DNA of 64,000 bases from Thraustochytrium sp. TN22 (lineage: Eukaryota > Sar > Bigyra > Thraustochytrida > Thraustochytriidae). Each line of letters begins with the position of its first letter. Position 1 is the stretch's first letter. The notes under the pieces are model-generated. The model was not told the DNA's origin. It made no database searches and worked only from the letters and a program-made list of their open reading frames with translations. The stretch is taken from positions 97,287 to 161,286 of the forward strand of contig JABLUY010000053.1 of assembly GCA_013306675.1 (NCBI GenBank), read 5' to 3'. Shown here one piece after another: positions 53,617 through 58,434 of this stretch. Made by a program: the position numbers and the translations under genes.

Positions 53617-54348
53617 TCAGATGAGGTCATCGTCGTGATCCTCGGTAAAGAGCGGCTCGTACTTGTATTGGCCAGTGCCGGCGGCCGGCGACGACCGCGC
53701 GCGCACCACCTCTGACAGCGCGGCACCCGCCGCGCCCACCGCAATGCCCAGCGGCACGCAAAACGCCTCCTCGTGCACGAGCTGGTGGCGCAGGTCAGCT
53801 GCTGAGTGCGCGCGCTTGCCGACGTCCAACAGCGCAAAAAACGCGCCGTAGCCCAGCCCCATGACAAGCGACGTGAGCGCCACCGCGTTCACCTGGGGCA
53901 CCGAGTCTATCAGTGCCGGCGCCCCCGCGCCGAAGCAGTACACCGCGCAGAGGTTGAGGAGATCGAGCACCGAGAAGGTGAGCGCAAAGCACGTCGCAGC
54001 GCCCAGCAGGCTGTACAGCGGCAGCTTGGCGCCACGCCCCAGCGTGAAGATCCACGACTCGCGCATCACGAAGCACACGATCCCAGCCGCCACCACAGCG
54101 CTCGCAAACCCGTACACCATGACGCGCCGCCACGCCGCCGCCTGCCGCGACGCGCGGAAGATGATCACCCCGCCCAGCACCAAGAACACGAACCCCGAGT
54201 ACCACGCGTACACCGGGCTCAGGCTGATCTCCACCAGCGTGCAGTTCACCGCGAACGACAGCGACAGCCCCACCAGCGCGCCGCCCAGCACCACCAGCAC
54301 GAACCTGGGGGCCGCGCCCAGCTCCGCGACCAGCATGAGCGCGCCCAT
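53617..54348 (-). CDS. Polytopic membrane protein of unknown function
   Basis: 243 residues from the ATG at 54348 (MGALMLVAELGAAPRFVLVV). About six hydrophobic helices are visible: FVLVVLGGALVGLSLSFAV, YSGFVFLVLGGVIIF, VMVYGFASAVVAAGIVCFV, LYSLLGAATCFALTFSVLDL, ALTSLVMGLGYGAFFALLDV, and FCVPLGIAVGAAGAALSEVV. The C-terminal tail is acidic and cytosolic-looking (YKYEPLFTEDHDDDLI), with a YxxL/dileucine-like sorting context. No family recognised. Divergent from the PX protein gene, 305 bp between starts, which may mean joint regulation. Confidence 0.78.
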   Translation of the reverse strand: MGALMLVAELGAAPRFVLVVLGGALVGLSLSFAVNCTLVEISLSPVYAWYSGFVFLVLGGVIIFRASRQAAAWRRVMVYGFASAVVAAGIVCFVMRESWIFTLGRGAKLPLYSLLGAATCFALTFSVLDLLNLCAVYCFGAGAPALIDSVPQVNAVALTSLVMGLGYGAFFALLDVGKRAHSAADLRHQLVHEEAFCVPLGIAVGAAGAALSEVVRARSSPAAGTGQYKYEPLFTEDHDDDLI

Positions 54349-54653
54349 GCTGCTGCAGTGCAGACCAGAGCGAGCGACTCGGAGTCGGAGCGCGCGCTTC
54401 TGCGGGCAAGCCGGCAAAGGACCACCAGCGCCGCCGCCGCCGCCTCGCGCCCCGCGCCCCTTGCGAGTTTGCAAGCTCGCAAGCTCGCGAGCGAGCTTCT
54501 TGCTCGTCCGTCCGGACGCGCGCGCCGGCCTTCTTGGAGGTGATGCGGAGGCCGCAGCGCGCACGAGCAAGACCCGCCGCAGGTACGTGTTCCAGTACGT
54601 GTACCCTGGTGGTACCGCTGCCCCTCTGAGGCTCGCGGCGCGGGCTTCTTCGC
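54349..54653. other. Divergent promoter region
   Basis: 305 bp between the polytopic protein (-) and the PX protein (+) starts. A GCAAGCTC/GCTCGCAAG cluster with short dyads lies at about 54469-54495. No gene. Confidence 0.45.
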
Positions 54654-56198
54654 ATGGCGGGCGTGGAGGCGAGCGGCGCCGGCGGGCGGCGCCGCGCCGG
54701 CGCCAGCGCCTGCGCCGAGCTGCTGGGAGCTGCGGCGGCCGCGGCGGTGGGCCTCGGCCTCGGGCTCGCCATGGCGGGACTCGTCGCGCCCCGCGCCGTC
54801 GCGGTGGTGCTGGCCAGCGCCGCGGACCACCCGGCGCTCGTGGCGGCCGGGCTCGCGACCCTGCTCGCCCTCCTGGCTGCCGTCTGGGCTGCTGTCGCGG
54901 CGCTCGACCTGCTGGGCCACGGACAAGACCAAGACCTGAGCGACGGCGGCACCAAGGCCGCGCTCGTGCGCAAGCTCGCGGCCTGGGCGCGCGTGGCGCG
55001 CGTGCTGGCGCCGCACGCACGAGATCTGCTGCCGCACGCGGCTGTCTTTGCGGCGCACGCGCCGGGCCTCGTGAGCGAGGTCGAGCGCCTTGCGCCGCTC
55101 ACCGAGGCCATCATGGAGGAGAAGCACTTCATGCTCCCGCTGCTGCCCGAGATGCTGGCGCGCAAGGAGGCGCTGCTGCAGCACGTCGAGGCGCTCAGCC
55201 CGCACGTGCATACGCTCGCGCCGCACGCCGCCGTGCTTCTGCCGTACGCAGATGACATGTTGCCGTACGTGCAGGACCTGGCGCCGCACGTCGACCAGCT
55301 CATCGTGTTCATGTCCGTGCGCGGCTGGGAGCAGACGCTGCCGCACCTCGGCGCTATCGCGCCGCACATGGACGCCATCGCGCCCTTTGCGCCGCGCCTC
55401 GCGCGGCACCTCGATGCGCTGCTCCCGCACCTCGACGTCTTCGTCAAGTACGTTCCGTATCTGGACATTCCCGCCACGCTCGACGTCCTGGACCACCTCG
55501 TGCCGCTGCTGCCGCTGCTGCCACTCGTCGACCAGAGCGGCCTGCTGCGCTCGCGCCTCGTCTGCCGCGTCATCCCGCCCGTCGCGCGCCTCTTCCCGCA
55601 GGCGCCCGGGCCGCCCGACGCGGACCCGGTCGAGTGCGCTGCCGTCACCGTGGCCGGCCTGCCCGCCATCGAGGTGCCTCACCAGCGCCGCTTCGAGCGC
55701 CGTTCCAACGCGGTCTGCGGCTTCATGTCGCCGCTGCCCAAGGCCCTGCAGGGCCCGGATCGCGCGCTGTGCATCTCCGTGCGCTCCGCGGACGATGCCT
55801 CCTCCAGGCCCGTGCGCTACCGCGTCGTCCTCAACCACCGCTACGAGCAGGACCTGCGCTACAGCGAGCTACGCGCCTGGGACAAGCGCATCGCCCACGA
55901 GCTCTCCAACTACGCACGTCTGCGTCTGCTTCCCTTTCCGGACAAGACCTTTCTGGGACGCCGCCTGTCGTCTCATGGCGTGGAGTGTCGCCGCCGTGCC
56001 CTCGCCAACTATTTCGAACGACTTGCCGACCACGCCGCCGTGGTCGTTGAGGAGTCGCCTTCGTTTCGCGCCTTTCTCCGCAGCTTCTTTGTCGACGTGA
56101 GCAGCAGCGGCGGCGGCAGCAGCAGTAGCAGCAGCAGCAGCAGTAGCAGAGAAGGCGGATTTTTGCAGCGCTGCGACAGCAGCCACAGCGCATGGTAA
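54654..56198 (+). CDS. Membrane-anchored PX-domain protein with Pro-His heptad repeats
   Basis: 514 residues from the ATG at 54654. Two hydrophobic segments (about 21-45 and 49-88) form an N-terminal membrane hairpin. Residues 118-221 and 228-273 are built of seven-residue units of the type hxPHhxx (LAPHARD, LLPHAAV, LSPHVHT, LAPHAAV, LLPYADD, MLPYVQD, LAPHVDQ, then IAPHMDA, LLPHLDV). Pro falls every seventh residue at 120, 127, 148, 162, 183, 190, 197, 204, 211 and again at 230, 237, 244, 258. Residues about 375-480 are a PX domain (RYRVVLNHRYEQDLRYSELR, LLPFPDKTF, RRALANYFERL), which binds phosphoinositides. The tail is Ser-rich (a TCC/AGC-type repeat). A membrane-contact or sorting-nexin-like role is inference. 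Confidence 0.88.
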   Translation: MAGVEASGAGGRRRAGASACAELLGAAAAAAVGLGLGLAMAGLVAPRAVAVVLASAADHPALVAAGLATLLALLAAVWAAVAALDLLGHGQDQDLSDGGTKAALVRKLAAWARVARVLAPHARDLLPHAAVFAAHAPGLVSEVERLAPLTEAIMEEKHFMLPLLPEMLARKEALLQHVEALSPHVHTLAPHAAVLLPYADDMLPYVQDLAPHVDQLIVFMSVRGWEQTLPHLGAIAPHMDAIAPFAPRLARHLDALLPHLDVFVKYVPYLDIPATLDVLDHLVPLLPLLPLVDQSGLLRSRLVCRVIPPVARLFPQAPGPPDADPVECAAVTVAGLPAIEVPHQRRFERRSNAVCGFMSPLPKALQGPDRALCISVRSADDASSRPVRYRVVLNHRYEQDLRYSELRAWDKRIAHELSNYARLRLLPFPDKTFLGRRLSSHGVECRRRALANYFERLADHAAVVVEESPSFRAFLRSFFVDVSSSGGGSSSSSSSSSSREGGFLQRCDSSHSAW

Positions 56199-57192
56199 CT
56201 GTCCTCTAACTGATCATCCAAATGTACCCTGAGAGAACCCGAGCGACCTGAGCACATCCCTCCGCATCTCCGGCCTTTATACCACTGGTACTACTTCTTG
56301 GCCGCACGACCGCACCAGCGGGTGCCCCGACGCAGGCCCGCCTCCCGAAACCGTCCTCCAGACTCTCTGGCAGGCCTCGCGGCGGCGAACAGTGAGCCCT
56401 GGCGCTTCGCTGGCGCTTCGCTCAGCACGCAGGCTGCGCTGCCTCCGCGGGCCTCTCTCGCTGCCTCAAGTCCTCAAGCCCTCCTCTCCGGCTGCGCCGC
56501 AGCGCCGACGCCCGCGAAGGTGCTCGTCCTGGCCTCGCCGTAGTGGCCCCGGCCCGCGCCCCTCCCTCCCTCTGAATGTCCACGTTCGCGCCGGCCCCTG
56601 CCCTGACTGAAGCCTTGGCGAGCAGTCCGCTGCAGTCCTGCGCTCGGCGCCTCGCCGGGCTGGCGAACGTCTGGCGAATCGCATTGATGCGCATTGATCT
56701 TGCAGTGCCCTGCCGCCACGCGGTCTGCTCTGACATCGCCGCCGACGTCGGCCCGGCAGCGTCGATCGGAGTCATCATCAATGACTTCCACTGCAACGAG
56801 CATCGCGCCGCGGACGAGCTTGGCGCGGTCTTCGAGGCCGCCGGCCGCCGCCTCGGGCTCGGCCTCACGCGGTGCGTCCGGAGCCCGCCCAGATTCGTGA
56901 AAGAAGGCGCAGGCGCAGGCTGAGCTGCACGCCTCGGCGGAAGCGGCCGGAGAAGATGGTCGTCGGGCCGGGGTTTTCCGCCTTGGGCCCGCTTGGACCC
57001 GGAGCGGCGTTCCGGCAGCCGGGGTTTTGCGCCTCGGCGCTGAGCCGCAGCGGCCGCGCGCCGCCAGCCAGACCCGAATCGCGCGCGCGGATCGATCGCC
57101 GCCGTCGCCGCAGCGCACGCACGCTCGCTCGCGGTCGCTCGCACGCAGGCAGGCAGGGAGGCAGGCTGGCAGGCAGGCAGGCAGGAGGCAGG
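56199..57192. other. Intergenic, ending in GGCA/GGCAGG repeats
   Basis: About 1 kb. Frames on both strands are open but show no domain and no coding bias I trust. An (AGGC)n tract at about 57146-57190 abuts the next ATG. Confidence 0.5.
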
Positions 57193-58434
57193 ATGGCGCC
57201 CAAGGAAGAGGCCAAGCCCCTCGTGGGCGAGGGCGCGACGGCCGCCACGGGCGCGGCGACGACGCCCGCGGAGCCCGAGGAGAAGGGGGAGGGCCCCGCC
57301 GGCATGCTGGAGAACCTGCTGGCCGTCGCGGCCGGCCTGGTGTTTGGGTTCTCGCTGGACAAGGCGCACACCAACGTGCCGGGCGTCATCATGCAGCAAA
57401 TGGAGATGAAGGACTTCACCATGATGCGCATGTTCCTGTCGGCCAGTGCCACGTCGGCAGCGGTCGTGCTGGCGCTCAACGCGCTCGGGCTCAAGAAGCG
57501 CAAGCCCGAGTGCGGCCTGGCCATGGGCCTGCATGTGCTGGGCGGCTACGGCGCCAACTTCGTGGGTGGCGCGCTGCTGGGCGGCGGCATGTACCTGAGC
57601 GGCAGCTGCCCCGGTACGGTGTGGGCGCAGATCGGCGCCGGCTACCCGTTCACCGGCAGCATCGTGGCCGGCGGCCTGCTCGGCACGCTCTGCTACGGCT
57701 ACCTGGACAAGCACCTGCACAGCAAGATCAAGGACTACCACAAGCGCCACACGACCGAGGAGTCGGATCTCGTCCCGTCCTTCATGCCGTACGCCGCCGC
57801 TTCGATGCTCTTCGTGGGCGTCGCCGCCGGCTTCATCACCTTTTTGAACCAGTACTTTCCCTGGCAGGCCTCGCAGGAGCGCATCCTGCTCGCCGCGCCG
57901 CCCGCCAGCACCTACACGCATGGCGACCTGACCTCGCCCTACTGGGACCCGGCGCTCGCCGGTCTCATGCTCGGCCTGCTGCAGATCCCGGTCCAGTTCA
58001 CCTCCGGCAACGCGCTCGGCCAGTCCTCCGGGTGGGTCCTGCTCGCCGCGCGCATCGCCAGCCTCTTTGACGGCAACCTCCGCACCAACTCGCCCTACCT
58101 TCGCGACGCCCAGCTCAAGCGCAAGCCTGCCTTTCAGGTCTTTGTGGCCTTTGGCATTGCGCTTGGCGCCTTCTTCTCCCAGAATCTCTCCGGCCACCCG
58201 GCGCTCTCCCCGGAGTTCGCCAACGGTGTCGGCTCGCACCTGCGCGCCTTCATTGGCGGCTACATGCTCCTCTTTGGTGCTCGCCTTGGCGGCGGCTGCA
58301 CGTCGGGCCATGGGCTCTCCGGCATGGCCCAGCTCTCTGTTGGCGCCCTTGTCACCGTCGCTGGCATGTTCCTCGGCGGCATGGCTTTGGCTGCCGGCTC
58401 TGGCAACTTTGTCCAGCTTCCCATGTTCAAGTAG
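57193..58434 (+). CDS. YeeE/YedE-family sulfur (thiosulfate) transporter-like membrane protein
   Basis: 413 residues from the ATG at 57193. After a soluble N-terminus (about 1-45) there are two homologous halves rich in Gly-packed helices. The first half contains GMYLSGSCPGTVWAQIGAGY and the second GARLGGGCTSGHGLSGMAQL. These Cys-centred S/G-x-C-x-G/S-G signatures define the sulphur_transp (YeeE/YedE) family, in which conserved Cys residues relay thiosulfate across the membrane (TsuA). The family is mainly bacterial. Fused two-half versions occur in some fungi and protists, so bacterial origin by transfer is plausible but not shown here. The host membrane is unknown and there is no clear targeting peptide. 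Confidence 0.88.
   Translation: MAPKEEAKPLVGEGATAATGAATTPAEPEEKGEGPAGMLENLLAVAAGLVFGFSLDKAHTNVPGVIMQQMEMKDFTMMRMFLSASATSAAVVLALNALGLKKRKPECGLAMGLHVLGGYGANFVGGALLGGGMYLSGSCPGTVWAQIGAGYPFTGSIVAGGLLGTLCYGYLDKHLHSKIKDYHKRHTTEESDLVPSFMPYAAASMLFVGVAAGFITFLNQYFPWQASQERILLAAPPASTYTHGDLTSPYWDPALAGLMLGLLQIPVQFTSGNALGQSSGWVLLAARIASLFDGNLRTNSPYLRDAQLKRKPAFQVFVAFGIALGAFFSQNLSGHPALSPEFANGVGSHLRAFIGGYMLLFGARLGGGCTSGHGLSGMAQLSVGALVTVAGMFLGGMALAAGSGNFVQLPMFK

Follow-up and report, generated by a model that had tools for sequence, protein, structure and literature searches.

The window, i.e. the whole 64,000-nucleotide stretch of DNA analysed here, carries on its forward strand at 54654..56198 a gene for a protein of 514 aa, read as a single open frame from ATG to TAA without a break. 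The GC content at the first, second and third codon positions of this frame (0.77, 0.494 and 0.885, respectively) is coding-like, while the non-coding flanks (54350-54653 and 56199-57180) display 0.68-0.73 GC at each of the three positions and no such contrast. A codon-position contrast is also present in a neighbouring gene, and the GC content of the window is 0.58-0.78 per 2 kb. Published labyrinthulomycete genomes differ from the window in this respect, with GC values of 43-47% (PMC10101102), 45% (PMC12258536) or 57% (PMC5854782), and the light-harvesting protein family PF00504 gave no match. The upstream divergent neighbour (53617-54351, reverse strand) has, by eye, the look of a multi-pass membrane protein, and Pfam returned nothing for it at E 1 or below. 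The downstream neighbour (56872-58434, forward strand) matches the sulphur transport family Sulf_transp (PF04143, E 5.8e-45), which is best known from bacteria. In the 514-aa protein itself, an N-terminal hydrophobic pair is followed by a central module of seven-residue periodicity and then by a PX domain at the C-terminus, the last being the sole match in a Pfam scan of the full protein (up to E 1).

Kyte-Doolittle hydropathy, averaged over 19-residue windows, exceeds 1.6 across residues 18-57 and 59-90, and two hydrophobic segments (about 24-54 and 60-86) were accordingly delimited within residues 24-86 (54723..54911, forward strand). The full-length AlphaFold2 model, of low confidence, also has helices at residues 18-54 and 60-87. 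The two segments likely form a membrane hairpin, in agreement with the first-pass annotation of this DNA.

The PX domain, which had also been recognised from the sequence at the outset, covers residues about 386-477 (55809..56084, forward strand; Pfam span 402-477). Its PF00787 score of 27.4 bits (E 5e-6) lies above the curated cut-off of 21.6 bits, and 30.8 bits were obtained in the genome search. Alignment with the 25 other PX domains of the genome places R402, Y403, K431 and R446 in conserved columns, occupied by R in 23, Y/F in 24, K/R in 20 and R/K in 24 of the 26 domains (own included), respectively. These columns we take, from PX structures, to be PI3P contacts. L401 replaces the first residue of the R-R-Y motif, a position at which Arg stands in 21 of the 26 domains. 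The domain is likely to bind a phosphoinositide. An NCBIfam match to XAC0095 inside the PX domain (E 0.0085) scored 16.2 bits where 34 are required, and was discarded as below the cut-off. About 37 residues, largely Ser/Gly-rich, lie C-terminal of PX; they include a Ser/Gly-rich low-complexity tail at residues 481-499 (56094..56150, forward strand), coinciding with an AGC triplet repeat at 56100-56149.

The own-genome searches covered a 37.9-Mb assembly of 453 contigs, and the other PX genes among the 26 PX matches were read with flanks of up to 1500 bases, long genes thus being seen in part. One open frame (C63:90687-90887) has hydrophobic segments, by eye, followed by PX and a START lipid-binding domain. 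In another (C420:241080-241316), a VPS13 C-terminal match (E 5.9e-5) precedes PX (E 1.4e-12), and the product looks like a bridge-type lipid-transfer protein. A third locus (C420:323236-323457) joins PX to a glycosyltransferase family 28 N-terminal domain, of the kind found in sterol glucosyltransferases.

The central module occupies residues 99-313, approximately (54948..55592, forward strand). Within residues 101-300 there are seven Pro-Pro pairs at a lag of seven residues against 2.0 in shuffled sequences, and seven or more pairs appear in 1 of 5000 shuffles. Pro is found at 9 of the 14 positions 120+7k (to 211) and at 4 of the 7 positions 230+7k (to 272). The first-pass annotation had described about 20 Pro-His heptads; the seven-residue Pro period is indeed above chance, but the in-phase Pro number 13 of 21 and not about 20. 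The residue following these 13 Pro is His in eight cases, Tyr in two, Phe in one and Leu in two, so that the statement that His, Tyr or Phe comes right after Pro in most units is correct for this protein (11/13). When all Pro of the stretch are counted, His is the next residue in 8 of 21.

One clear relative exists in the same genome, on contig C263, with 34% identity over residues 29-312 (34-35% over the module; E 2.4e-26), and the reciprocal search from this relative recovered the same pair. The counts of relatives from both own-genome protein searches are lower bounds, and the comparison of modules is one of two sequences from one genome. The C263 relative contains 13 Pro pairs at lag 7 against 3.4 expected, a count reached in none of 5000 shuffles. 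His, on the other hand, follows Pro in only 1 of 27 cases, commoner residues being Tyr (6), Leu (4) and Ile (4). As far as this pair of sequences tells, the conserved trait is the Pro register, whereas the relative does not retain the His row; the suggestion that the His rows act as a metal or pH sensor is therefore not supported and was dropped.

Both paralogues also have in common a turn motif V-x-G-W-E and an end motif PLLPLLPxxDQxGxL (residues 281-298; 55494..55547, forward strand), the identity being 46% over residues 274-312. The relative likewise displays two N-terminal hydrophobic segments by Kyte-Doolittle hydropathy. No PX domain was found in it: the 26 genomic PX matches on the list include none from contig C263, and a Pfam scan of the relative up to E 10 gave no match. 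A homologue with PX and without the Pro period had been named beforehand as the result that would speak against a repeat family; the opposite was observed, as the C263 homologue retains the Pro heptads without matching PX. Because the relative is devoid of PX, the job of the module cannot depend on PX in both proteins. At its end the relative (locus L002, 1342-2625) bears a strongly acidic Asp/Glu tail, as against the Ser/Gly tail of the window protein.

The search with the window protein gave 11 rows, two of them being the gene itself and the C263 relative. The nine others (E 0.0035-0.9; contigs C198, C102, C105, C331 and C28) were set aside as relatives on their weak E-values and TPR-like repeats. 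The TPR-like reading of these rows rests on three plus-strand loci inspected by eye (two on C198, one on C331), in which 42-residue TPR-like repeats come after a common N-terminal region. A distant relative may be present among the six weak rows outside this reading, and the reciprocal search gave an extra row on C222 (E 0.058). No relatives were found in viral, prokaryotic-genome, phage and plasmid collections, the query being the window protein for the phages and the relative for the plasmids; as these hold prokaryotes and viruses mostly of prokaryotes, the result has little bearing on eukaryotes. Other sequence databases may well contain unnamed proteins of this kind.

The surroundings of Pro in the module follow a common pattern. 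On average, in both proteins, hydrophobic residues occupy offsets -5, -2, -1, +2, +5 and +6 relative to Pro, in contrast to offsets -6, -4, -3, +1, +3 and +4, single positions departing from this rule. The resulting hydropathy contrast is 3.15 for the window protein (23 Pro) and 2.98 for the relative (28 Pro), whereas the maxima of 5000 shuffles each, in which the residues other than Pro were permuted, are 1.65 and 1.64, respectively. The offsets were picked from the window protein's own unit, and the relative and the background therefore serve as the fresh tests of the pattern. The background consisted of 539 distinct Pro-rich stretches of 200 aa from 378 open frames, taken in six frames from the window and the fetched loci of the same genome; the top ten stretches (3.21 to 1.14) all derive from the two paralogues, and the eleventh scores 0.91. 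On a helical wheel, and as read from the two sequences, Pro is thus placed, on average, on the polar face of amphipathic helices, opposite a hydrophobic stripe. A PX gene on contig C78 has a lag-7 count of 9 (8 for the window gene) within a Pro-Ala-Arg low-complexity run; it is outside the 14 best by the amphipathic pattern and was rejected as a second Pro-heptad PX gene.

Structure prediction was informative for a part of the module. The full-length AlphaFold2 model, built on a two-sequence alignment, has a mean pLDDT of 36.7 and is too poor for use. For the module alone the mean rises to 53.7, the individual values lying in the range 70-90 for 58 of the 218 residues, in 50-70 for 41 and under 50 for 119; block means of 70-85 over residues 119-188 give fair confidence in about one third of the module. 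Predicted helix 1 spans residues 101-155 (54954..55118, forward strand; Pro 120, 127, 137 and 148), with block mean pLDDT of 60-81 from residue 109 onwards, and is followed by a predicted turn at residues 156-159 (55119..55130, forward strand), where the relative has a two-residue insertion. Predicted helix 2 covers residues 160-221 (55131..55316, forward strand; Pro 162, 165, 183, 190, 197, 204 and 211), at block mean pLDDT of 64-85 to about residue 198 and below 50 from residue 208. The second predicted turn coincides with V-x-G-W-E at residues 222-226 (55317..55331, forward strand), the relative being without seven residues just ahead of it. A weakly predicted helix 3 (residues 224-269; 55323..55460, forward strand; Pro 230, 237, 244, 247, 258 and 268; pLDDT below 50) agrees with the hydrophobic pattern, and the low-confidence model has further helices at residues 273-292 and 301-313. 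The prediction proposed by the first-pass annotation yields long helices of fair confidence over residues 119-188, but scores below 50 from residue 208 onwards.

Helices 1 and 2 would pair as a hairpin, the turn between them being short. The number of three helices is a guess past the first two, because 119 of the 218 module residues have pLDDT below 50. The paralogues differ by insertions or deletions after residue 156 (two residues), at 214-220 (seven residues, one heptad) and after residue 270 (two residues), on or next to the predicted breaks (156-159, 222-223 and 270-272); module positions within two residues of a predicted break amount to 21 of 213. The seven-residue gap starts eight residues ahead of the predicted break and ends two ahead of it, which places it in the terminal part of predicted helix 2. 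The one-residue gaps near both ends of the alignment (101 and 314) are uninformative on turns. As the alignment was fed into the model, this agreement of indels and turns is not independent, and is support rather than proof.

Regular Pro had been held to be incompatible with a coiled coil, which now appears doubtful. The hydrophobic pattern has a period of 3.4-3.6, with a stripe at heptad positions 0, 3 and 6 as in a classical coiled coil, Pro lies outside this stripe, and the AlphaFold2 helices, of fair confidence in about a third of the module, run through Pro. Unlike those of a classical coiled coil, the predicted helices are not free of regular Pro; 23 Pro fall within the five predicted helices of the module model, three of which are at pLDDT below 50. 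Searches of Pfam, NCBIfam and PDB sequences gave nothing convincing over the module. In the Pfam scan up to E 10, the window module gave two weak rows below the cut-off (best Importin_rep_6, E 0.26) and the module of the relative none. Fold searches gave nothing above the level of common helical arrangements: the viral fold library returned 67 matches, none at E ≤ 0.001, and VIA-align no family above that level. The view of a distinct repeat module between the likely hairpin and PX, with a relative that keeps the Pro spacing and no convincing sequence match, is supported.

The layout is best read as that of a membrane-contact tether of the SNX19/Mdm1 kind with a different central module, an interpretation to which we assign slightly better than even confidence. 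The hairpin would anchor the protein in one membrane, the ER by analogy with SNX proteins. The module would fold as a bundle of some three long helices in antiparallel arrangement, each of roughly 46-62 residues (70-90 Å at 1.5 Å per residue), with connections close to residues 156-159, 222-223 and 270-272. The PX domain would dock on a phosphoinositide (perhaps PI3P), either in a second membrane or in the one that holds the hairpin; the ER anchoring and the PI3P target are both analogies. Pro in register opposite the hydrophobic stripe would kink the helix away from Pro, so that the helices would curve with the hydrophobic face inside. The resulting bundle would be overwound or bowed, and either stiffer than an ordinary coiled coil or more open. 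The PX-less relative would be anchored and bundled in the same manner but targeted otherwise, or would pair with the window protein. The spacer between two membranes suggested by the first-pass annotation thus fits the layout, with a localisation drawn from analogy.

If the tether reading is right, the gene would specify another build of membrane-anchored PX tether, using a type of helix usually thought unfavourable, and would allow the effect of regular Pro kinks on helical-bundle curvature to be examined in a natural case. It would also be a new contact-site protein in a GC-rich eukaryote, with the PX-less paralogue as a built-in comparison.

A possible curvature of the helices raises the question of lipid. 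A helix kinked by Pro bends to the side opposite Pro, and with kink angle and direction as in work on Pro in helices, an idealised helix kinked by 10-26 degrees at each heptad has a curvature radius of 23-68 Å, which is tighter than the radius of about 106 Å obtained for ordinary coiled coils. In this idealised helix, the inward pointing is 0.9 for heptad positions 3 and 6, 0.22 for positions 0 and 2, and -1.0 (outward) for Pro. Bowed helices might leave a hydrophobic groove or cavity in which lipid is carried or shielded, and the protein would then serve in lipid transfer or on lipid droplets, beyond acting as a spacer. We consider this rather unlikely, though it accords with Pro being placed, in both proteins, across from the hydrophobic face and, circumstantially, with the PX-START and PX-VPS13_C fusions of this genome. 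A large hydrophobic channel has also been predicted in the helical PXA-PXC part of SNX-RGS proteins (PMC8864675). No cavity was seen in the model, which is weak, and the kink angle is a general one for Pro in helices. In the toy helix, inward pointing is equally small (0.22) for position 0, which is hydrophobic, and for position 2, that of His/Tyr, and the hydrophobic stripe may just be buried in the bundle. An extended form of the same idea, which we judge unlikely, is that of an unrecorded fold family in which heptad-register Pro kinks bow antiparallel helices round a lipid-holding cavity, the protein acting as a contact-site lipid conduit of separate origin from PXA-PXC.

The wide hydrophobic stripe, with its period of 3.4-3.6, and the occurrence of the same module in two paralogues, one with PX, would equally suit an assembly scaffold, in which the helical surface builds homo- or hetero-oligomers (e.g. 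of both paralogues) in one membrane plane and PX steers the location. This possibility, not separable from the tether reading on the present data, seems to us quite unlikely. Still more improbable is a surface binder, the heptads of which would rest flat against a membrane or a lipid droplet in the manner of apolipoprotein-type helices, Pro letting them follow the curvature. The amphipathic pattern, in which the polar side bears Pro, is compatible with it, but the GWE turn motif, the end motif and the heptad-sized indel by a predicted turn suggest a folded domain, and Pro every seven residues is denser than the 22-residue spacing of apolipoproteins. That GC-rich drift merely yields runs of Ala, Leu, Pro and His devoid of special structure is hardly credible: the window is GC-rich and Pro-rich low-complexity stretches do occur in other frames, yet the shuffles, the 539-stretch background and the relative all argue against it, and shared drift by recent copy is unlikely since 34% identity indicates no recent copy.

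Among known proteins, the tether reading was compared with several systems. The top profile match of the module is 8qad (E 0.005; best stretch 0.18), a designed single-chain antiparallel coiled coil, and arises from Leu-rich heptads; the matched stretch has no Pro every seven residues, and the likeness reflects composition. The HEAT repeats of transportin gave a weak match to the module profile (E about 0.025), but HEAT units are about 35-45 residues long and the unit here is seven, and no HEAT match was obtained on searching both modules and the full relative for HEAT and TPR with Pfam up to E 10. Five weak PDB sequence matches (E 0.08-0.7), namely to sorting nexins 7, 17 and Grd19 and a putative Vps protein, are confined to the PX part; in the SNX17 alignment, the R-Y, K and R columns are common with the window PX. 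These proteins are not known to have a hairpin or such heptads. Among the titles and abstract beginnings of the open-licence literature, no paper on a PX protein with Pro heptads, nor on Pro-kinked helical repeats, was encountered.

The closest resemblance is to the SNX-PXA-(RGS)-PXC tethers (Mdm1, Snz, SNX13, SNX14, SNX19 and SNX25), which likewise consist of two N-terminal membrane segments, here present by hydropathy alone, a helical part and PX. SNX19 has two N-terminal TM segments in the ER and its PX binds PI3P on endolysosomes, thereby joining both, while the PX domains of SNX14 and Snz are without PI3P binding (PMC8316374). Nvj3 and Pxa1 of S. pombe have a PXA-PXC-type helical fold without PX (PMC8864675). 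The window protein differs from these tethers in having a Pro heptad repeat as its central module and about 37 residues after PX, and no match to PXA, RGS or PXC (C-nexin) was found in it with Pfam up to E 1. A PXA match, the sole one found, occurs with a PX match in one 1307-residue open frame on contig C188 of the same genome. As the window protein is without PXA and PXC, and a PXA-PX frame exists separately, it stands outside the SNX-RGS family. By analogy, it probably works like the SNX tethers, with another stalk.
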